Source: Xanthomonas sp.
GTDB taxonomy: Bacteria; Pseudomonadota; Gammaproteobacteria; Xanthomonadales; Xanthomonadaceae
Assembly: GCA_018262705.1 (NCBI GenBank)
Contig: JADFDQ010000001.1
Span: 1-64,000, forward strand
DNA length: 64,000 nt
Direction of reading: 5' to 3'
Of this stretch, positions 25,101 to 36,027 are shown piece by piece. Position numbers and translations under genes: made by a program. Numbering within the stretch: the first letter of the stretch is position 1; each line of letters starts with the position of its first letter. The notes beneath the pieces were generated by a model. The model did no database searches, was not told where the DNA came from, and saw only the letters and a list, made by a program, of their open reading frames with translations.

Positions 25101-26399
25101 TCAGGCCGCCGCGCGCTTGCCGTGGAACTGCTCTTCCTCGGTGCTGCCCTTGAGCGCCACGGTCGAACTCTGTCCGCCTTGAATGGTCTGGGAGACGGCG
25201 TCGAAATAGCCGGTGCCGACCTCGCGCTGGTGCTTGACCGCGGTGAACCCGCGCTCGGCCGCTGCGAACTCCTTTTCCTGCAGCTCGACGAAAGCGCTCA
25301 TCTGCCGTCGCGCATAGCCGTAGGCCAGATCGAACATGCCGTAGTTGAGCGCATGGAAGCCGGCCAGCGTAATGAACTGGAACTTGTAACCATAGCTGGC
25401 GAGTTCCTTCTGGAACCTGGCAATCGTGGCGTCGTCCAGATTCTTCTTCCAGTTGAAGCTCGGCGAGCAGTTGTAGGCCAGGAGCTTGCCGGGGAACTTG
25501 CGGTGGATGGCCTCGGCGAACTTGCGGGCGAACTCCAGATCCGGCTTGCCGGTCTCACACCACACCAGATCGGCGTAGGGCGCATAGGCCAGACCGCGGC
25601 TGATCGCCTGCCCCAGCCCGTTCCTGGTCTTGTAGAAGCCTTCGGCCGTGCGCTCGCCGGTGCAAAACGGCGTGTCGTTGTCGTCCACGTCCGAAGTCAG
25701 CAGGTCGGCCGCCTCGGCGTCGGTGCGCGCCACGATCAGGGTCGGCACGCCGCACACGTCGGCCGCCAGCCGCGCCGCCGACAATTTTTCGACCGCCTCA
25801 CGGGTCGGCACCAGCACCTTGCCGCCCATGTGTCCGCACTTCTTCACGCTGGCCAGCTGGTCTTCGAAGTGCACGCCGGCCGCGCCGGCTTCGATCATCC
25901 CCTTCATCAGCTCGAAGGCGTTGAGGACGCCGCCGAATCCGGCCTCGGCGTCGGCCACGATCGGCTGCAGGTAGTCGATGCCGTGATCGCCCTCGGCGTG
26001 GCTGATCTGGTCGGCGCGCAGCAGCGTATTGTTGATGCGCTTGACCACCAGCGGCACCGAGTTGGCCGGATACAGCGACTGGTCGGGATACATTTCGCCG
26101 GCGACGTTGGCGTCGGCCGCCACCTGCCAACCGGACAGGTAGATCGCCTTCAGTCCGGCCTTGACCTGCTGCATGGCCTGGTTGCCGGTCAGCGCGCCCA
26201 GCGCGTTGACGAAATCTTCCTGGTGCAGCGATTTCCACAGCTTTTCGGCACCCAGCCGCGCCAGCGAATGCTCGATGTGGACGGTGCCGCGCAGGCGCAC
26301 CACGTCGGCGGCGGAATAGGTGCGGGTGATGCCGGCCCAACGTGGGTTGTTGGCCCAGTCGAGATTCAGCTGTTCTGCGGTCGGGAGCAGGTTCTTCAT
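25101..26399 (-). CDS. aceA: Isocitrate lyase
   Basis: [61 protein letters not shown] (KKCGH catalytic). Confidence 0.96.
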
Positions 26400-26439
26400 G
26401 ATCGGCCTCGTTGGAAAGTGGGGTGGGGACAACGGTGGT

Positions 26440-28059
26440 TTAGTCGAGCCGCTCGTAGGCGGGCAAGGTCAGGAAATCGGCCAGATCGCTGGCGTGGGTC
26501 AGGCGGTCGAGCAGTCCGATCGACTCGCCGACATGGTGGGCGCCGGGCATGCCCGGAATGCGCGCCAGCCGGCTGGGCAGCCCGATCAGGACGCGGTCGA
26601 GCAGGACGAAATCGATCGGGGTGCCGTCATCCAGCGCCAGCGGCTCGCTGCCGTCATCGGTGAAATGCAACCACTGCCAGAGTTGGGCGCGCGCGATCTC
26701 GGCGGTGGCCGCGTCTTCCATCAGGTGGTGGATCGGCACGCAGCCGTTGCCGTCCAGCCACGCGGCCAGATAGCGCACGCAGACCTCGATATTGTTTTCG
26801 AAGCCGACGCGGGTGATCGTGCCGGTCACCGGCTCGATCAGATCCTCGGCAACGACCTCGACGTCTTCGCGCAGAACGTGCTTCTGGTTCGGGCTGCGCA
26901 TGCGCGCATCGAAAATTTCGCGCGCCAGCGGAATCAGCGCCGGGTGCGCCACCCAGGTGCCGTCGTGACCGGCCGTGACTTCGCGCAGCTTGTCGGCGCG
27001 CACCTTGTCGAGCGCGACCGCGTTCGCGGCCGGATCGCCGTTGATCGGAATCTGCGCCGCCATCCCGCCCATCGCGTGGGCGCCGCGGCGGTGGCAGGTC
27101 CTAATCAGCAACTCCGAATAGGTGCGAAGGAACGTTCGCGTCATGCCGACCTGGCCGCGCTCCGGGAACACGTGGTCGCGGTGGCGACGGAAGGTCTTGA
27201 TGCAGGAAAAGATGTAGTCCCAGCGCCCGCAGTTCAGGCCGACGATGCGACCCTTGAGCGCATGCAGGATTTCGTCCATTTCGAACGCGGCCGGCAGCGT
27301 TTCGATCAGCACCGTTACCTTGACCTGTCCCTGCGGCAAACCCAGTTCGGCCTCGATGAAGGACAGCGCCTGCTCCCACAGCGCCGCCTCTTCCATCGAC
27401 TGCAGCTTGGGCAGGTACAGGTAGGGGCCGCGGTCCTTGCCCGCCAGCAGCGCGGCGTTGTGCAGCAGGAACAGCGCGGCGTCGAACAGCGCGCCGGACA
27501 TTCGCTGGCCGTCCACGCGGACGTGCTTTTCGTCCAGATGCCAGCCGCGCGGACGGACGAGCAGCACCGCCTGCTCCGATTCCGGCTTGAGCGCGTACTG
27601 CTTGCCGTTGTCCGCGGTGAACTCCAGCGTGCCGCGCACCGCCGCGCGCAGCGCCTGCTGGCCGCCGATCAGATTGGCCCAGGTCGGGCTGGTGCTGTCT
27701 TCGAAGTCGGCCATGAAGCAGCTCGCGCCGGAGTTGAGCGCGTTGATCACCATCTTCGGATCGACCGGCCCGGTGATCTCGACGCGACGGTCGCGCAGCG
27801 CGGCCGGGGTCGGCGCCACCGTCCACTCGCCGGCGCGGATCGCGGCGGTGTCGGGGCGGAATCCCGGCAGCGCGCCGGCGTCGAACGCCGCCTGGCGAAC
27901 GCTGCGCGCTGCCAGCCGCGACTGCCGCTCGGACTCGAAGCGGCGATGCAACCCGGCCAGCAGTTCCAGCGCCCTCGGGGTCAGAATCGCCTCCTGCCCC
28001 GGCAGCGCCGGGGTGATTTCAACGCCCGCTTCGAGGCGATCTTGCAACACGGCCGACAT
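26440..28059 (-). CDS. aceB: Malate synthase A
   Basis: Start [77 protein letters not shown]. Confidence 0.95.
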
Positions 28060-28107
28060 CGGCAACTCCATGCAACGAATGGGCTCTCACCATCCGCAGC
28101 CGTGTGG

Positions 28108-28169: not shown

Positions 28170-29138
28170 ATGGCGGGCGCCCCCATTTCCGCGCTGCGAT
28201 TCGCGTACAAAGGCTCGCGCCTGAAGCCGCTGCGGGCGTTTTGCCAGATCGCAAGACTTGGGTCGATTTCACGCGCCGCGGAAGCGCTGTTTCTCAGCCA
28301 GCCTGCGGTGTCGCTGCAGTTGCAGGCGCTGGAACGCGAACTCGGCGCACGGTTGTTCGAGCGCAGCGGGCGGCGCATGACGCTGTCGCGTGAGGGCGAG
28401 CTGCTTTACGACATGGCGCGCCCGCTGGTCGAGGGGCTGGACAACCTCGCCGCCAGCTTCCGCGAACGCGCGCGCGGTCTGGACGCTGGCGAACTGCACG
28501 TTGCGGCCGGCAGCTCCACGATCCTGTATCTGCTGCCGCAGTTCGTGGAAGCCTTCCGCAAGGCGTATCCGGAGGTACGGTTGACCCTGCACAACGTCAC
28601 CGGCGCCAGCGGCCTGGATCTGCTGCGCAGCGATGCCGTAGACCTGGCGGTGGGCTCGATGCTCGATGTTCCCGCCGACCTGAGCTACACGCCGGTCTAC
28701 CGCTTCGACCCAATGCTGATCACCCCGCCCGATCACCCGCTGGCACGCAAACGTGATTTGACGTTGGACGACTTGTCGCCCTACGGCCTGATCCTGCCGC
28801 CCAAGCGCCTGACCACCTACCGACTGGTCGATCTGGTGTTCCAGCAAAACCGGGTGCCGTACACGGTGGCCCTGGAAGTCGGCGGCTGGGAAGTGATCAA
28901 GCAGTACGTTGCCATGGGCCTGGGCATCAGCATCGTGACGGCGATCTGCCTGACCGAAGCCGACCGCCAGCGGCTGGTCGCGCGCTCGCTGGCGAACTGG
29001 TTTCCCGCGCGCAGCTACGGCATCGTGATGCGCAAGGGCAAATACCTGAGCAAACAGGCGCGCGCGTTCGTCGAACTGATCAACCCGCAGGCGCTGGCGC
29101 CGCGCCAATACGACGAGAGCGGGCATTCGGAGCGCTGA
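28170..29138 (+). CDS. LysR-family transcriptional regulator (CysB-like), divergent from aceBA
   Basis: RLKPLRAFCQIARLGSISRAAEALFLSQPAVSLQLQALERELGARLFERSGRRMTLSREGELL; LTTR HTH. Confidence 0.92.
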   Translation: MAGAPISALRFAYKGSRLKPLRAFCQIARLGSISRAAEALFLSQPAVSLQLQALERELGARLFERSGRRMTLSREGELLYDMARPLVEGLDNLAASFRERARGLDAGELHVAAGSSTILYLLPQFVEAFRKAYPEVRLTLHNVTGASGLDLLRSDAVDLAVGSMLDVPADLSYTPVYRFDPMLITPPDHPLARKRDLTLDDLSPYGLILPPKRLTTYRLVDLVFQQNRVPYTVALEVGGWEVIKQYVAMGLGISIVTAICLTEADRQRLVARSLANWFPARSYGIVMRKGKYLSKQARAFVELINPQALAPRQYDESGHSER

Positions 29139-29209: not shown

Positions 29210-31147
29210 TCACGGCATCACCAGCGCATCCGTCTTGTAGATCGCCACGTGCGGCACGCCGTCGCTGCCGATCCAGCCGCGGTACATGCCGCCGGTGTTG
29301 AACGGGAAGGCAATCACGCCGTCTGCGCTCAGAGCGATCGCGCCGCCGTCGCCGCCGGCGCGCGGAATGTCCACGTTGATCACGTCGTTGGCCGCCTTCG
29401 GCAGCGGCACGCCGGCCAGCCGCACGCGCGCACAGATTTCGTGCGCGGCGGCATCGCGGATGTAGAACTCGCCCCAGCCGGTGCCGGACACCGCACAGCG
29501 CGCATCGGCCCAGGTGCCGGCGCCGATGATTGGCGAATCGCCGACGCGTCCGTAGCGCTTATTGGTCATGCCGCCGGTTGAGGTGCCGCCGGCAAGGTTG
29601 CCGCTGGCGTCCAGCGCCAGCGCGCCGACGGTGCCGAAGTAGGCGCGCCCCGGCAGCACCAGCGGCCGCTGTTCGAGCCGCGCCTGCTTTTCTTCCTGCA
29701 GCGCGCGTTGCAGCGCTTTCCAGCGACCTTCGGTGCGGAAATACGAAGGATCGACCAGCGCGATGCCCTGCTCCCGCGCGAAGATTTCTGCGCCGTCGCC
29801 GACCATCATCACGTGGTTGGAGCGTTCCATGATCGCGCGCGCCAGCAGGATGGGGTTTTTCACCCGATGCAGCCCGGCGGCCGCGCCGGCGCGGCCGGTC
29901 GCGCCGTCCATGATCGAGGTGTCGAGCTCGTTCCTGCCGTCGTGGGTGAACACCGCACCGCGGCCGGCGTTGAAGTGCGGATCGTCTTCCAGAACCGTAA
30001 TTGCCGCAGTCACCGCATCCAGCGCCGCCGCGCCGCTTTGCAGCCTGGCATGGCCCGCACGCAGCGCCGCAGACAAGGCGGCCTTGATCTCGGTTTCCTG
30101 CTGCGGCGTCAGATCGCCCGGCTCGACGCCGGCGCCGCCGTGGATGACCAGCAGCGGCGCATCAAGCGCGACCAGCACGCCGTCACGCACGGCATAGTGG
30201 CGGGTGAAGGCCGGTTGGTCGACCGTACCTGCCGGCAAATGCAGCACCGAATGGCCATTGACGCCCAGCGTTTCCACGCGATCCAGATGCATCGGCCGGC
30301 CGTCGACCTGCTTGTTCACGAAGTTGCCGCGCACCACCGTGGCGCCGGCACCTGGTGCGGTGGCGTAGACATGGCCGCTGCCGTCGCCGTCCACCGCGAC
30401 CGCCGCATCTTCGTCCACGCCAAGGCCGACCAGCGCCCGCCCGGCCATGTCCTCGCTCTTGGCGAGGAAGGCCACCAGCCGCCCGAGGCGGGCGCGCTCG
30501 CTGAAGTGGGTGTCGGTGATCACGCCGCGCAACAGGGCGAGGTCGAGGAAGCCGGTTTCAATGGTGTTGCCATCGCCCAGCGGATCGGCCAGCGCGGCCG
30601 GGCTGATGATGCTGCCGCCGTCCATCGCGCCATACAGGTACTCGCCGAGGATCGCGAGGCCCGCGCTGGTGCCGCCCAGCGGTTTGCCGGCACGCACATG
30701 GTCGCTCAGCGCCTTGGCGATCGGCGTTCCGCGCCAATAGCGCACATAGCGCGACTGATCGCCGCCGGCGATGAAGATGCCGTCGGCGTGCTTGAGCGCG
30801 CGCAGGATCCGCGGATCGCTGGCGGATTCGCGATCCTTGAACACGAAGGTTTCGACCGACGCGATGCCGCCGACCTCGTTGAAGAACTCTTCACCGATTT
30901 CCCCGCCTTGCGAAGCGCGAAGGACGACGATGTGGCCGTTGCCCGCCTTTTGCATGAACCAGCGCAGGGCGTCGTAATTGCGGTCGCCGCCGCCCATCAG
31001 CAGCAGGCCGGGCTGCACCTGGCCCGGCGTGCGCGTCGCAGGATTGCCCAACAGGTAATGGCCGACATCGGCCGCCGCCGCAGTCAGCGGCATCGCCAGC
31101 GACAGCAGTGCGGCCATCAGCAGGGCCCGGCAGGAAACTTGCTTCAT
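29210..31147 (-). CDS. Predicted exported fusion: N-terminal cyanophycinase-like (peptidase S51) domain + C-terminal isoaspartyl peptidase/L-asparaginase (Ntn-hydrolase) domain
   Basis: Signal peptide MKQVSCRALLMAALLSLAMPLTAAAA; cyanophycinase motifs GIFIAGGDQSRYVRYW, GGTSAGLAILGE, ITDTHFSERARLGRLVAFLA; IaaA motifs LLVIHGGAG, NAGRGAVFTHDGRNELDTSIMDG, GTVGALALDASGNLAGGTSTGGMTNKRYGRVGDSPIIGAGTWAD (nucleophile Thr codon at 29630-29632). Confidence 0.88.
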   Translation of the reverse strand: MKQVSCRALLMAALLSLAMPLTAAAADVGHYLLGNPATRTPGQVQPGLLLMGGGDRNYDALRWFMQKAGNGHIVVLRASQGGEIGEEFFNEVGGIASVETFVFKDRESASDPRILRALKHADGIFIAGGDQSRYVRYWRGTPIAKALSDHVRAGKPLGGTSAGLAILGEYLYGAMDGGSIISPAALADPLGDGNTIETGFLDLALLRGVITDTHFSERARLGRLVAFLAKSEDMAGRALVGLGVDEDAAVAVDGDGSGHVYATAPGAGATVVRGNFVNKQVDGRPMHLDRVETLGVNGHSVLHLPAGTVDQPAFTRHYAVRDGVLVALDAPLLVIHGGAGVEPGDLTPQQETEIKAALSAALRAGHARLQSGAAALDAVTAAITVLEDDPHFNAGRGAVFTHDGRNELDTSIMDGATGRAGAAAGLHRVKNPILLARAIMERSNHVMMVGDGAEIFAREQGIALVDPSYFRTEGRWKALQRALQEEKQARLEQRPLVLPGRAYFGTVGALALDASGNLAGGTSTGGMTNKRYGRVGDSPIIGAGTWADARCAVSGTGWGEFYIRDAAAHEICARVRLAGVPLPKAANDVINVDIPRAGGDGGAIALSADGVIAFPFNTGGMYRGWIGSDGVPHVAIYKTDALVMP

Positions 31148-31246
31148 CCTCGCTCTCCACCCGTTGTGTGCGGACCTCCAAGCAGACGAATCAACGCAGC
31201 AAATCCCTACGCGCGCGTCGTCGCAACATTCCGCTATGGTACGCAG

Positions 31247-31822
31247 ATGCATGGCCCGCTCGACCACTGGTTCGTCCATGAGATCCTGATCCACGAGGAA
31301 GCATTGCTGCGCTACCTGCGCCATCACTGGCCGCATCGCGACGAAATCCACGACTTGCGCCAGGAGCTCTACGCCCGTATCTACGAAGCCGCCGCCAAAT
31401 CCATTCCGCTGCAGCCCAAGGCGTTTCTGTTTTCCAGCGCGCGCAATCTGATGACCGACCGGCTGCGCCGCAGCAAGGTGGTATCGATCGAACCGATGGG
31501 GGATTTCGAGCCTTCATACGTCTTGGTGGATGAGGTCACGCCCGAGCGCTGGAGCGGCAGCCGGCAAACTCTGCGGCGGCTGTCCGAGGCGCTCAACCGG
31601 CTGCCCGACCGCTGCCGGGAAGTCGTCTGGCTGCGGCGGGTGGAGGATCTGTCGCAAAAGGAAGTCGCCCTGCGCCTTGGCATCAGCGAGAAAACCGTGG
31701 AAAAACACATCGCCAAAGCCATGCGCCTGCTCGCCGATGCGCTGCACGGCGGTGAGGCCGGCGCGTCACCCGCGCACGCCATGCCGCCGTGCGCTGTTTC
31801 CACGCGGCGTCGGAAGGATTGA
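31247..31822 (+). CDS. ECF (FecI-like) RNA polymerase sigma factor
   Basis: LLRYLRHHWPHRDEIHDLRQELYARIYEAAAKSIPLQPKAFLFSSARNLMTDRLRRSKVV...ALNRLPDRCREVVWLRRVEDLSQKEVALRLGISEKTVEKHIAKAMRLLADAL; region 2/4 motifs. Start in the larger ORF trimmed to the ATG at 31247. Confidence 0.88.
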   Translation: MHGPLDHWFVHEILIHEEALLRYLRHHWPHRDEIHDLRQELYARIYEAAAKSIPLQPKAFLFSSARNLMTDRLRRSKVVSIEPMGDFEPSYVLVDEVTPERWSGSRQTLRRLSEALNRLPDRCREVVWLRRVEDLSQKEVALRLGISEKTVEKHIAKAMRLLADALHGGEAGASPAHAMPPCAVSTRRRKD

Positions 31823-31828
31823 CCCGCC

Positions 31829-32863
31829 GTGCGCCCACCCTGCGCCAGCATCGAACAAACCGCCGCCGATTGGCTGGCGAGACACGACGCGGGCGCATGG
31901 ACGGCGTGCGACCAAGCAGAATTCAACAGCTGGCTTGACCAGGACACGATGCATCGCATCGCCTTCCTGCGCTTGCAGGTAGCCTGGGATGAGACCGCGC
32001 GACTGCGCGCCTTGGGTGCCGGCAGGCACGCCGTCAGGCCGCCGCGAACCGAAGTTCGGAGCGATCGCCGCGAGCTGATGCTGCTTGCCCTGCAGCCGCG
32101 CGCGCGCGTTCCACGCAAGCCACGTCAGCGCTGGCTGCCACTGGCCGCCGCTTCGATCCTCGCCGCCTGCGCGCTGCTGCTGGGCTGGGATCTGCGGCAA
32201 CCCGCGCCGATGACCGCGATCTCGTACCAGTCGCTTCCCGGACAGGTCTCCACATTCGTGCTGGGCGACGGCTCGCACGTGATTTTGTCCAGCGACAGTC
32301 GGATCGAGGCCCGTCTGTCCGCTCGCGTCCGCGACATTGCCCTGACCCGCGGCGAAGCGATTTTCGAAGTCGTGAAAGATCCGCAGCGGCCGTTCTCGGT
32401 TGCGGCCGAAGGCTACCGTGCGGTCGCGGTAGGAACGCGCTATTCGGTGCGCCGGGATTCCGACGCGCTGCGGGTCGCGGTGACCGAAGGCACGGTACGA
32501 CTGGATTCCCCGGACCAGAACCGTTCCGATCAGCCCTCGGTGCTGCTTCCGGCCGGCAGCGTGGCGCTGGTACGCCGCAGCGGCGTGCTGGTTCGCAGCC
32601 TGCCGCTGGCACAGGTGCGCAGCATGCTTGACTGGCCCAACGGCATGCTGTCCTTCGCGGACGCGCCGCTGTCCGAGGTCGTTGCGGAGTTCAACCGCTT
32701 CAATACGCGCAAGCTGGTGATCGCCGATGCCGATGCCGCCACCCTGCGCATCGGCGGCAGCTTCCGCTGGGACAACGAAGACGGTTTTGTGCGCCTGCTC
32801 GAAGCCGGCTTTCCGATCCGCGCCGAGGCCGACGTCAGGCAAATCATCCTGCATTCGCGTTGA
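31829..32863 (+). CDS. FecR-like transmembrane anti-sigma factor/sensor
   Basis: ADWLARHDAGAWTACDQAEFNSWLDQDTMHRIAFLRL; TM WLPLAAASILAACALLLGW; FVLGDGSHVILSSDSRIEARL...RGEAIFEVVKDPQRPFSVAAEGYRAVAVGTRYSVR (FecR). Confidence 0.88.
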   Translation: MRPPCASIEQTAADWLARHDAGAWTACDQAEFNSWLDQDTMHRIAFLRLQVAWDETARLRALGAGRHAVRPPRTEVRSDRRELMLLALQPRARVPRKPRQRWLPLAAASILAACALLLGWDLRQPAPMTAISYQSLPGQVSTFVLGDGSHVILSSDSRIEARLSARVRDIALTRGEAIFEVVKDPQRPFSVAAEGYRAVAVGTRYSVRRDSDALRVAVTEGTVRLDSPDQNRSDQPSVLLPAGSVALVRRSGVLVRSLPLAQVRSMLDWPNGMLSFADAPLSEVVAEFNRFNTRKLVIADADAATLRIGGSFRWDNEDGFVRLLEAGFPIRAEADVRQIILHSR

Positions 32864-32949
32864 ACTCGCCAAGACGGGGGGATTTTCAGCGTCTGTTCGT
32901 CCTGATTGCTTGACGGCGCCAACGCGCGCGCTACCTGGGGAAAACCGCA

Positions 32950-35900
32950 ATGCTTTTCAATCGTCCGCTTCGCCGGCTGTTGCTGGCCCTGGCCTGTTCT
33001 GCCGCGCTCGCCGCACAGGCGCAGACCGCACCGCGCCTGGATATTCCTGCCGGCGATCTGGCCGCAGCGCTGGCCACCTACGCGCAGCAAACCGGAACCC
33101 AATTGATCTATCGCGCCGACCAGCTTCGGGGGGCGCACAGCAACGGCTTGCGCGGACAATCCGCTTCGCCGCAGGCGCTCGACGCCCTGCTTTCCGGCAG
33201 CGGCTTCCGCGCCCAGCGCGACGCTTCCGGCGCGGTTCTGATCCTGCCCGCCGCCGCTGCGCCAGCCGCACCGGCGCGTCCTGCACGCCCCGCGCCGCCC
33301 CCGCAGGCGCAATCGGAAGGGCCGGTGACCCAGCTGGAAGCGGTGCAAGTCACCGGCTCGCGCATTCCACGCGCGCAGATCGAAGGGCCGGCGCCGATCA
33401 CCGTGGTCAGCTCCGAACAGATCCAGGCTGCCGGGTTCACCTCGGTTCCGGAAGTCCTGCGTTCGCTGAGCCAGAACAGCGGCAGCGTGCAGGGCCAGCA
33501 GAACACCACCAGCGCGCAGTCCACCCCTGGCGCACAGGCGGTCGACCTGCGCGGCATCGGGCCCAATCACACGCTGGTGCTGGTCAACGGACGCCGGATC
33601 GCCGACTTCCCTTTGCCGCTCGAAGGCAAGAGCAACTTCACCGACATCGGCAGCATTCCGCTGGGCATGATCGACCGCATCGAAATCTTGACCGGCAGCG
33701 CCTCGGCCGTGTACGGGTCTGACGCCATGGCCGGCGTGATCAACTTCATCCTGAAAAAATCCGCCGACGGCACCACCATCGACTATCGCTACGGCGACAC
33801 CAGCCACGGCGGCGGCGCTTCCCACGACCTGACGCTGACCACCGGTTTCGAAAACGGCAATTTCACCGGCATCGTCGGCATCGAGTTTCAGGACAAACAG
33901 CCGCTGTGGGGCTTCCAGCGTCGCGTCCAGGATTCCACCCTCGATGCTCCCAACGCGCGCCGCCGCCTGCCGCGCGTGGTCGCATCGATCTACGACTGGG
34001 ACGACGACGTCAACATCATGCCTGCCAACGGCTGTACCGCGCTGTCGACGCAGGAACAAGGGTCCGTTGTCCTCACCCATGACCGCTGGGGCGAACCGTA
34101 TTGCGGCAGCGAACGTGCGATTGCCTATCGAACCATCCAGAACGAGCGCAAGGGCGTCAACTTCTACGGTTCCTTCGAGTATCAATTTTCCGGCACCCTG
34201 TCGTGGTTTGCCGATGTCCAGGCCGGACGCCAAACGGTGCGTCTGCTGACCGGGGTTCCCGGCGGCAGCAACGAATTCAACAGCGACCACATGGGCTGGC
34301 AGTTTCAGGATCCCGCAGCCACCGACAGCAACGACGGCATGTTCTACAACGCCAACACCGGCCACTATGAAGTCTGGACCCGTGAGTTCACTCTCGAAGA
34401 AGTGGGTGGCCTGCGCAGCCGCATGAACACCACGGTCGAAATGACCTTCGGCCTGACCACTGGCCTGAAGGGCGCCATTGGTGAAAACTGGGACTGGGAG
34501 CTGTCCTACAACTATTCCCGGTATAAGGCCGACGTGAGCATGCCGCGCATCAATGCTGAGGCCGCCAACACCTATTTCCTCGGCCCGCGCCTTGGCTACG
34601 ACGCCGACGGCTACGCGATCTACGCCCCGGATCCGGCCAACCTGTTCACTCCCCTGACCCCGGCCCAGTTCGCAACCCTCGGGGCGATGTCGGTTTTCCA
34701 CCCCAAGGCCGCGAACAACAACCTCAGCTTCACGGTCAACACGCCCGTACTGTTCACCCTGCCGGCGGGCGATGTCGGCTTCGCCGGCGTCGTCGAATAC
34801 GGCAGCCAGTCCTACCGCATCAATCCGGATCCGCTGGCGCTGACCGACACCGACTACTACGGCCCACGCTATGGCGACGGCCACGGCAGCCGCAACCACT
34901 GGGACGTGGCCGGCGAATTGCGCATGCCGCTGTTTTCCACGCTGCAGGCCAGCCTTGCCGGGCGCTACGACCAGTACAGCTACGGCGGCCAGAACCCCGG
35001 CAAGTTCACCTACAGCCTCGGCCTAGAGTGGCGACCTGTCGACACCTTGCTGGTTCGCGGCTCGTACGGCACCGGCTTCCGCGCACCGGACATGCACTAC
35101 CTGTTCGCAGGCAACGATTACTACCGCCGGACATCGACCGACTATTTCCAGTGCCGCACCGACGATCCCAGCCTGAGCGACGCCGACTGCTATGACGACG
35201 GCAGCTGGGACATCGCAACCCGCGACGTCTATGCGGGCAACCGCAACCTGCAGGTCGAAACCAGCAAGTCCGCCACGATCGGGTTTGTCTGGTCGCCCAC
35301 ATCGAACTTCGACCTCGCCATCGACTACTACAGCATTCGCATCGACAATCAGGTGCAGACCCAGAGCCGCGACCTGCTGCTGATCACCGACGGCAACTGC
35401 CGGCTCGGCATCACCGACACCGGCGCCGCCGTGGACGTGCATTCGCCAAGCTGTCTCGACGCCATGGCGCGCGTCGTCCGCAACGGCAACGGCGAAATCA
35501 CCAGCGTGCTGTTCGGGCCGATCAACATCGCCCACGAACAGACCTCGGGCATCGACCTGACCTTCAACTACCGGCTGGACACCGCCAACGCCGGCAGCTT
35601 CCGCTTCAACGGCAATTACAACTGGACGCATCGCCACACGCGCAACGTTTACCCGGGCGATCCGACCGAGGACATGCTCGACGTCGGTTTCAGCGACACC
35701 ACCCTGCCGCGCACCAAGGGCAATCTCGGCGTGAACTGGGAGCGCGGCGCCTGGGGCGCGGGTCTGTTCGGCAATTACCTCGGCCGGGTGGCGAACTACA
35801 CCAACACCGCCTGGACGCAATCGACCTGGCGCTTCAACGCCAGCGCGCGCTACAACATCAACGACCACTTTCAGGTCGCGCTGAGCATCGACAACCTGCT

Positions 35901-36027
35901 TGACCAAATGCCGCCGAAGGATCCCACCTGGGACCGTTACCCCTACTACGACACCTCGTGGTTCGACAGCTTCGGCCGCAGTTTTTTCCTGCAATTCACC
36001 TACAAGTTTGGCGGCCAGCCGCTGTAA
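32950..36027 (+). CDS. TonB-dependent outer-membrane receptor with N-terminal STN signalling domain
   Basis: Signal peptide; STN PRLDIPAGDLAAALATYAQQTGTQLIYRADQL; plug EAVQVTGSRIPRAQIEGPAPITVVSSEQIQAAGFTSVPEVLRSL...NGRRIADFPLPL...EILTGSASAVYGSDAMAGVINFILKK; C-terminal FLQFTYKFGGQPL. Confidence 0.92.
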   Translation: MLFNRPLRRLLLALACSAALAAQAQTAPRLDIPAGDLAAALATYAQQTGTQLIYRADQLRGAHSNGLRGQSASPQALDALLSGSGFRAQRDASGAVLILPAAAAPAAPARPARPAPPPQAQSEGPVTQLEAVQVTGSRIPRAQIEGPAPITVVSSEQIQAAGFTSVPEVLRSLSQNSGSVQGQQNTTSAQSTPGAQAVDLRGIGPNHTLVLVNGRRIADFPLPLEGKSNFTDIGSIPLGMIDRIEILTGSASAVYGSDAMAGVINFILKKSADGTTIDYRYGDTSHGGGASHDLTLTTGFENGNFTGIVGIEFQDKQPLWGFQRRVQDSTLDAPNARRRLPRVVASIYDWDDDVNIMPANGCTALSTQEQGSVVLTHDRWGEPYCGSERAIAYRTIQNERKGVNFYGSFEYQFSGTLSWFADVQAGRQTVRLLTGVPGGSNEFNSDHMGWQFQDPAATDSNDGMFYNANTGHYEVWTREFTLEEVGGLRSRMNTTVEMTFGLTTGLKGAIGENWDWELSYNYSRYKADVSMPRINAEAANTYFLGPRLGYDADGYAIYAPDPANLFTPLTPAQFATLGAMSVFHPKAANNNLSFTVNTPVLFTLPAGDVGFAGVVEYGSQSYRINPDPLALTDTDYYGPRYGDGHGSRNHWDVAGELRMPLFSTLQASLAGRYDQYSYGGQNPGKFTYSLGLEWRPVDTLLVRGSYGTGFRAPDMHYLFAGNDYYRRTSTDYFQCRTDDPSLSDADCYDDGSWDIATRDVYAGNRNLQVETSKSATIGFVWSPTSNFDLAIDYYSIRIDNQVQTQSRDLLLITDGNCRLGITDTGAAVDVHSPSCLDAMARVVRNGNGEITSVLFGPINIAHEQTSGIDLTFNYRLDTANAGSFRFNGNYNWTHRHTRNVYPGDPTEDMLDVGFSDTTLPRTKGNLGVNWERGAWGAGLFGNYLGRVANYTNTAWTQSTWRFNASARYNINDHFQVALSIDNLLDQMPPKDPTWDRYPYYDTSWFDSFGRSFFLQFTYKFGGQPL

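Follow-up and report, generated by a model that had tools for sequence, protein, structure and literature searches.

The locus described here raises the question of what a bacterium could sense, and what it could feed on, with a gene for a two-domain peptide hydrolase placed back to back with those of an ECF sigma factor, a FecR-like regulator and a TonB-dependent receptor. A sequence-only reading of the window (the whole stretch of 64,000 nucleotides that was analysed) had described a hydrolase fusion divergent from a sigma-FecR-receptor triad at a distance of 99 bp. This arrangement was confirmed for all four genes (Table 1), the gap between the hydrolase and sigma start codons spanning positions 31148-31246. 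Our analysis suggests that the locus is quite probably a substrate-induced and self-contained system for the utilisation of cyanophycin (or of beta-Asp-Arg oligopeptides), based on Fec-type cell-surface signalling.

Table 1. Genes and promoter elements of the locus, in window coordinates.
Feature	Position	Strand	Details
Hydrolase gene, exported bifunctional	31147-29210	-	645 aa; ORF and domain search
ECF sigma factor, FecI-like	31247-31822	+	Sigma70 r2 and r4 domains
FecR-like sigma regulator	31829-32863	+	DUF4880 and FecR domain
TonB-dependent outer-membrane receptor	32950-36027	+	1025 aa; STN 51-100, Plug, beta-barrel
ECF-type promoter of hydrolase, GGGATTT-N10-TTCGTC	31185-31207	-	37 bp upstream of start codon
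ECF-type promoter of receptor, GGGATTT-N10-TTCGTC	32879-32901	+	48 bp upstream of start codon
TATGGT, probable sigma70-type -10 of sigma-fecR operon	31235-31240	+	inferred from GcTA..gT conserved before the sigma ATG in the alignment

Cyanophycin is degraded in two steps, to beta-Asp-Arg by cyanophycinase and then to Asp and Arg by isoaspartyl peptidase (PMC10206079). In a profile search, residues 111-256 of the hydrolase matched the S51 cyanophycinase-like domain PF03575 (E 1e-11), and residues 331-637 matched Asparaginase_2, the isoaspartyl peptidase family PF01112 (E 1e-106). The N-terminus is a Sec-type signal peptide of around 26 residues (1-26, MKQVSCRALLMAALLSLAMPLTAAAA-DVG). The S51 residues Q131, S161, D212, H214, R218, R220, R223 and E246 are invariant in 36 of 36 aligned homologues and align with the cyanophycinase chains PDB 3en0 and 7uqw. 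We take this set to be the catalytic Ser/His/Glu of cyanophycinases together with the Gln/Asp/Arg cluster of their substrate pocket. The pocket shows one replacement, D-T-H here for D-Q-H in Synechocystis CphB, with Thr instead of Gln next to the catalytic His. In the C-terminal half, T506, T524, R534, D537 and T556 are likewise invariant in 36 of 36 homologues and match the EcAIII chains, G557 being also among the Ntn-domain residues retained; Thr506 is presumably the Ntn nucleophile, and the others EcAIII-type substrate-binding residues. In the AlphaFold model of the hydrolase (pLDDT 84) this half fits E. coli EcAIII at around 1.2-1.4 Å, with a Foldseek TM score of 0.96 by target length. Judged from its sequence, the hydrolase retains the catalytic residues for both steps of cyanophycin degradation in one chain with a signal peptide, and it would act in the periplasm or outside the cell.

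Regarding the signalling genes, the FecR-like protein has a single hydrophobic membrane segment at around residues 102-120, between a predicted cytoplasmic anti-sigma end (DUF4880) and a FecR domain predicted to be periplasmic. Just one other FecR-domain hit was found in the whole genome, a weak one inside a 633-aa frame (G000:C23:104272-104541). The STN domain attributed to the receptor in the sequence-only reading was recovered by a profile search as a match to PF07660 (E 5e-8). A search for the receptor ligand through its fold was discarded: with a model of pLDDT 67, siderophore and other TonB receptors were retrieved at 11-15% identity, which is uninformative on the ligand.

Co-regulation of hydrolase and receptor, also anticipated from the DNA letters, was examined as a sequence test with a positive result. 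When the gaps ahead of both genes were aligned, one ECF-type motif was common to them, each copy facing its own gene. The exact form shown in Table 1 has two copies in the 2.49-Mb genome, both at this locus. Of the gaps ahead of the hydrolase, 53 of 56 contain a looser form, GGGRW-N11to13-TCGTC, and so do 50 of the 53 ahead of the receptor; the spacing is 13 in all but one, against none on the opposite strand of the same gaps and 0.1-0.35 in dinucleotide shuffles. Similarly, GGGRW-N12-TTCGTC gave 96 matches in 1.5 Mb of related loci, of which 90 fall inside hydrolase or receptor gaps, and five of the six remaining matches (in L022, L055, L057, L075 and L077) also belong, judging by where they lie, to a promoter of the hydrolase or of the receptor. 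Specificity depends on this longer form, as the loose GGGRW-N13-TCGTC is unspecific genome-wide (18 matches versus 23 for the reversed control). The sigma factor of the locus would be the one that reads GGGATTT-N10-TTCGTC promoters, and a private, receptor-switched regulon made of receptor and hydrolase appears well supported.

The gap alignment revealed no GGGATTT-type motif directed at sigma-fecR. A TATGGT-like -10 is conserved in front of it across the family, ending 6 bp ahead of the sigma ATG (window 31235-31247), a position so near to this codon that a leaderless or near-leaderless sigma-fecR transcript is implied. The 5' leader of the receptor (32902-32949) and its homologous leaders show inverted repeats (GGCGC/GCGCC, GGTGC/GCACC and others) with apparent compensatory changes. 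A hairpin in this leader, covarying by eye, was rejected as a candidate element, its folding energy being not above that of shuffles and its best-stem scores only modestly above them.

To analyze the conservation of the locus, the hydrolase was used as a query against GTDB genomes, and 78 loci were retrieved. Sixty Lysobacterales loci encode both hydrolase domains, and in 54 of them the available sequence extends 5 kb or more beyond the hydrolase on its upstream side. The receptor was found in every one of these 54 and the sigma factor and FecR in 53, counts that come from related genomes and are therefore not independent. The flanks of the four-gene unit differ from locus to locus, with other neighbours in other genera. 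For instance, genes for malate synthase, isocitrate lyase and a LysR protein adjoin it only in some Thermomonas/Lysobacter-type loci. In the window, positions 25101-28071 presumably encode isocitrate lyase and malate synthase of the glyoxylate shunt, named by reading the protein sequences, followed by a LysR-type gene at 28170-29138; all of these are neighbours of the four genes in just some of the genomes. The near invariance of the four genes across Lysobacteraceae and relatives, between changing flanks, indicates that they are maintained as one unit, and the expected synteny of hydrolase and triad was thus borne out. Within the family of the window itself, the full-length fusion was found in 32 of 150 genomes, among the matches listed.

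The STN region and the motif accompany the sigma factor and FecR also when these are lost. In the alignment, STN is present in the receptors that have sigma/FecR and absent from every receptor without them, and it is disturbed only in L072, where the reading frames are broken. At the locus L033, receptor and hydrolase are kept and sigma, FecR, STN and the two motifs are all missing; in the hydrolase tree this locus is placed deep inside the clade bearing sigma/FecR, although this is one case and from a metagenome-assembled genome. In the alphaproteobacteria Sphingomonas, Novosphingobium and Asticcacaulis, receptor and hydrolase are divergent, with no sigma/FecR alongside and an AsnC-type regulator near; in Sphingomonas and Asticcacaulis the receptors have no STN and the loci no motif. 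In the genomes of L055 and L057, hydrolase and triad are on separate contigs, and the motif is nevertheless retained upstream of the hydrolase. On the other hand, L054, L058 and L059, three of the five hydrolases of a Steroidobacteraceae-like group, have no upstream motif, which we count against our best explanation. The Fec-type half of the original proposal is strongly supported by the synteny, by a promoter motif limited to hydrolase and receptor, by the co-occurrence of STN with sigma/FecR and by their joint loss in one lineage.

Other arrangements were also observed. In four Steroidobacteraceae-like genomes (L147, L148, L149 and L150) the triad is divergent from genes for M16 peptidases, which were recognised at three of these loci, and the fusion is elsewhere. 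The hydrolase of L046 has no sigma, FecR or receptor gene in the 4.3 kb upstream, and its genome has no close receptor, the best one showing 34% identity. Both arrangements also count against our best explanation. In L075 and L077 the S51 and isoaspartyl-peptidase halves are two adjacent, unfused frames, still with the motif upstream. In a Rhodanobacter genome, an S51-only gene is divergent from a sigma-FecR-receptor triad with both promoter motifs present (L152), and an isoaspartyl peptidase gene related to the C-terminal half of the fusion is located elsewhere in that genome (L080).

From these data the following mechanism may be proposed. Binding of a ligand, predicted to be cyanophycin-derived, to the TonB-dependent receptor would move its STN domain, and FecR would then release or activate the ECF sigma factor, which would transcribe exactly two promoters, those of the receptor and of the divergent hydrolase; sigma and fecR would probably be expressed at a basal level from a housekeeping promoter. 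The hydrolase would leave the cytoplasm by means of its Sec signal peptide, its S51 half would convert the polymer into beta-Asp-Arg, and its isoaspartyl-peptidase half would split beta-Asp-Arg into Asp and Arg, these amino acids being then imported. We lean towards the view that extracellular cyanophycin, which lysed kin might supply, is what the receptor detects, and that the receptor then turns on a private regulon of two promoters, for itself and for a hydrolase that takes cyanophycin to amino acids in one polypeptide.

The assignment of cyanophycin as the substrate, well supported though unproven, is the best current reading, and it draws on genomic context in addition to the hydrolase itself. 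Genes for arginine degradation (Ast) lie within 10 kb in six Sphingomonas loci (L062, L063, L064, L065, L067 and L070), and the full AstA/AstD/AstC/AstE set was confirmed in four of the six; as these are close relatives, they amount to around one independent case. Genes for an AsnC regulator and a LysR protein also accompany receptor and hydrolase in the same six loci, and a dicarboxylate symporter gene adjoins the Asticcacaulis loci. The cyanophycin synthetase CphA was found in 15 of 32 fusion carriers versus 21 of 118 other genomes (Fisher p 0.0018; 150 genomes, among the matches listed and with kinship ignored). On the opposite side, 17 of the 32 carriers lack CphA, and cyanophycin, a poorly soluble polymer, may not readily meet an exported enzyme.

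The genome of the host has, at G000:C22:100500-114000 (L135), a row of four genes, for an IadA-like protein, an S51 cyanophycinase, a full-length cyanophycin synthetase and another CphA-like protein. This second S51 cyanophycinase of the host has no signal peptide and is predicted to be cytoplasmic, and it is encoded on another contig than the fusion locus. This row of genes indicates that the bacterium probably stores cyanophycin itself, and therefore the exported fusion would serve polymer found outside the cytoplasm, from neighbours or from lysed kin. The sequence-only reading had proposed scavenging of cyanophycin or beta-aspartyl peptides; cyanophycin or beta-Asp-Arg as the substrate is favoured by several independent, indirect lines, whereas pure scavenging is too narrow for a host that encodes its own synthesis.

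We also considered that the module could respond more broadly to peptides that are isoaspartyl or Asp-rich, such as those released by damaged proteins or cell-wall debris, in which case cyanophycin would be just one of the ligands or none of them. Isoaspartyl peptidases are promiscuous and accept many beta-Asp dipeptides even when encoded in cyanophycin clusters (PMC10206079), the triad adjoins M16 peptidases in the Steroidobacteraceae-like genomes, and more than half of the carriers have no CphA. In addition, the S51 domain scored 100.4 bits against the cyanophycinase equivalog TIGR02069, under its cut-off of 126.6 bits, so that we do not claim membership of this equivalog and keep the claim that the domain works like a cyanophycinase. 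However, the catalytic residues and the cyanophycinase-type arginine cluster are kept in 36 of 36 homologues, the fusion joins exactly the two steps of cyanophycin degradation, and the arginine-catabolism neighbours in Sphingomonas and the enrichment in CphA point to an Asp-Arg polymer. We regard this broader specificity as unlikely.

That the receptor is an ordinary iron or siderophore receptor with Fec-type regulation, and an unrelated hydrolase lies beside it by chance, seems very improbable. The characterised Fec-type systems are mostly for iron carriers (PMC9249621), and FpvA is among the closest solved full-length folds to the receptor model, one of modest confidence (pLDDT 67). Against this, hydrolase and receptor have an identical promoter motif, and the pair remains linked in alphaproteobacteria without sigma/FecR. 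Moreover, the best match to a Fur box in either gap covers 11 of 19 positions, fewer than the 13 of 19 reached in other parts of the window. Lasso isopeptidases have a prolyl-oligopeptidase-like fold. A system of this type, or for another natural product with an isopeptide bond, with its biosynthesis genes elsewhere, is scarcely credible despite the like ingredients of lasso isopeptidase clusters (PMC9266682), since the folds of the hydrolase are those of S51 and Ntn isoaspartyl peptidases and, as noted before from the sequence, no lasso biosynthesis genes, such as those for precursor or cyclase, were identified among the neighbouring genes examined.

If the cyanophycin reading is true, the locus would link Fec-type signalling, mainly known from iron uptake, with a polymer from which bacterial communities of gut, soil and sediment obtain nitrogen (PMC10206079), and a single receptor would both report and import an organic nitrogen polymer. 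The two-promoter regulon is small enough to test the entire circuit from signal to enzyme with a few reporter fusions, and it gives the TonB receptors of a widespread family, whose ligand is unknown, a concrete and testable one.

We compared the locus with known systems. The lasso isopeptidase clusters (AtxE2, SpI-IsoP) also combine an isopeptidase, a TonB receptor and a sigma/anti-sigma pair, whereas the locus studied here has other hydrolase folds, two catalytic domains and no precursor or cyclase genes identified among its examined neighbours. With CphB, CphE and CphI and the isoaspartyl dipeptidases IaaA and IadA it shares both reactions, with the active-site residues retained; a further comparison for these two reactions is the locus for cyanophycin utilisation that PMC10206079 cites from Ben Hania et al. 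Clustering of cyanophycinase and isoaspartyl peptidase genes in genomes without CphA is already documented (PMC10206079). Unlike in those enzymes, here both activities would reside in one exported polypeptide tied to a TonB receptor and to sigma/FecR, and the words "fusion" and "fused" do not appear in PMC10206079. In Citromicrobium sp. JLT1363 a TonB receptor gene is close to a cyanophycinase gene, and cyanophycin was proposed as the receptor substrate from this context (PMC3400609); that proposal concerns a single genome, and the part of the report that deals with it mentions no fusion, sigma/FecR, promoter or conservation. In the open-licence literature we found no published account of a cell-surface-signalling system for cyanophycin.

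The closest likeness in regulation is with the Fec, Fpv and Pup systems (FecI-FecR-FecA), which also consist of an ECF sigma factor, a FecR-like regulator and an STN-bearing TonB receptor. In Fec, FecI reads the fecA promoter and sigma70 drives fecIR; when the signalling domain is deleted, regulation is abolished and transport persists (PMC9249621). The locus likewise has an ECF-type promoter at the receptor and none at sigma-fecR, where a housekeeping-type -10 precedes the sigma gene. In contrast to those systems, its control seems to extend beyond the receptor to a divergent exported peptide hydrolase, its gaps have no Fur-box-like site, and its predicted ligand is a peptide polymer rather than an iron carrier.
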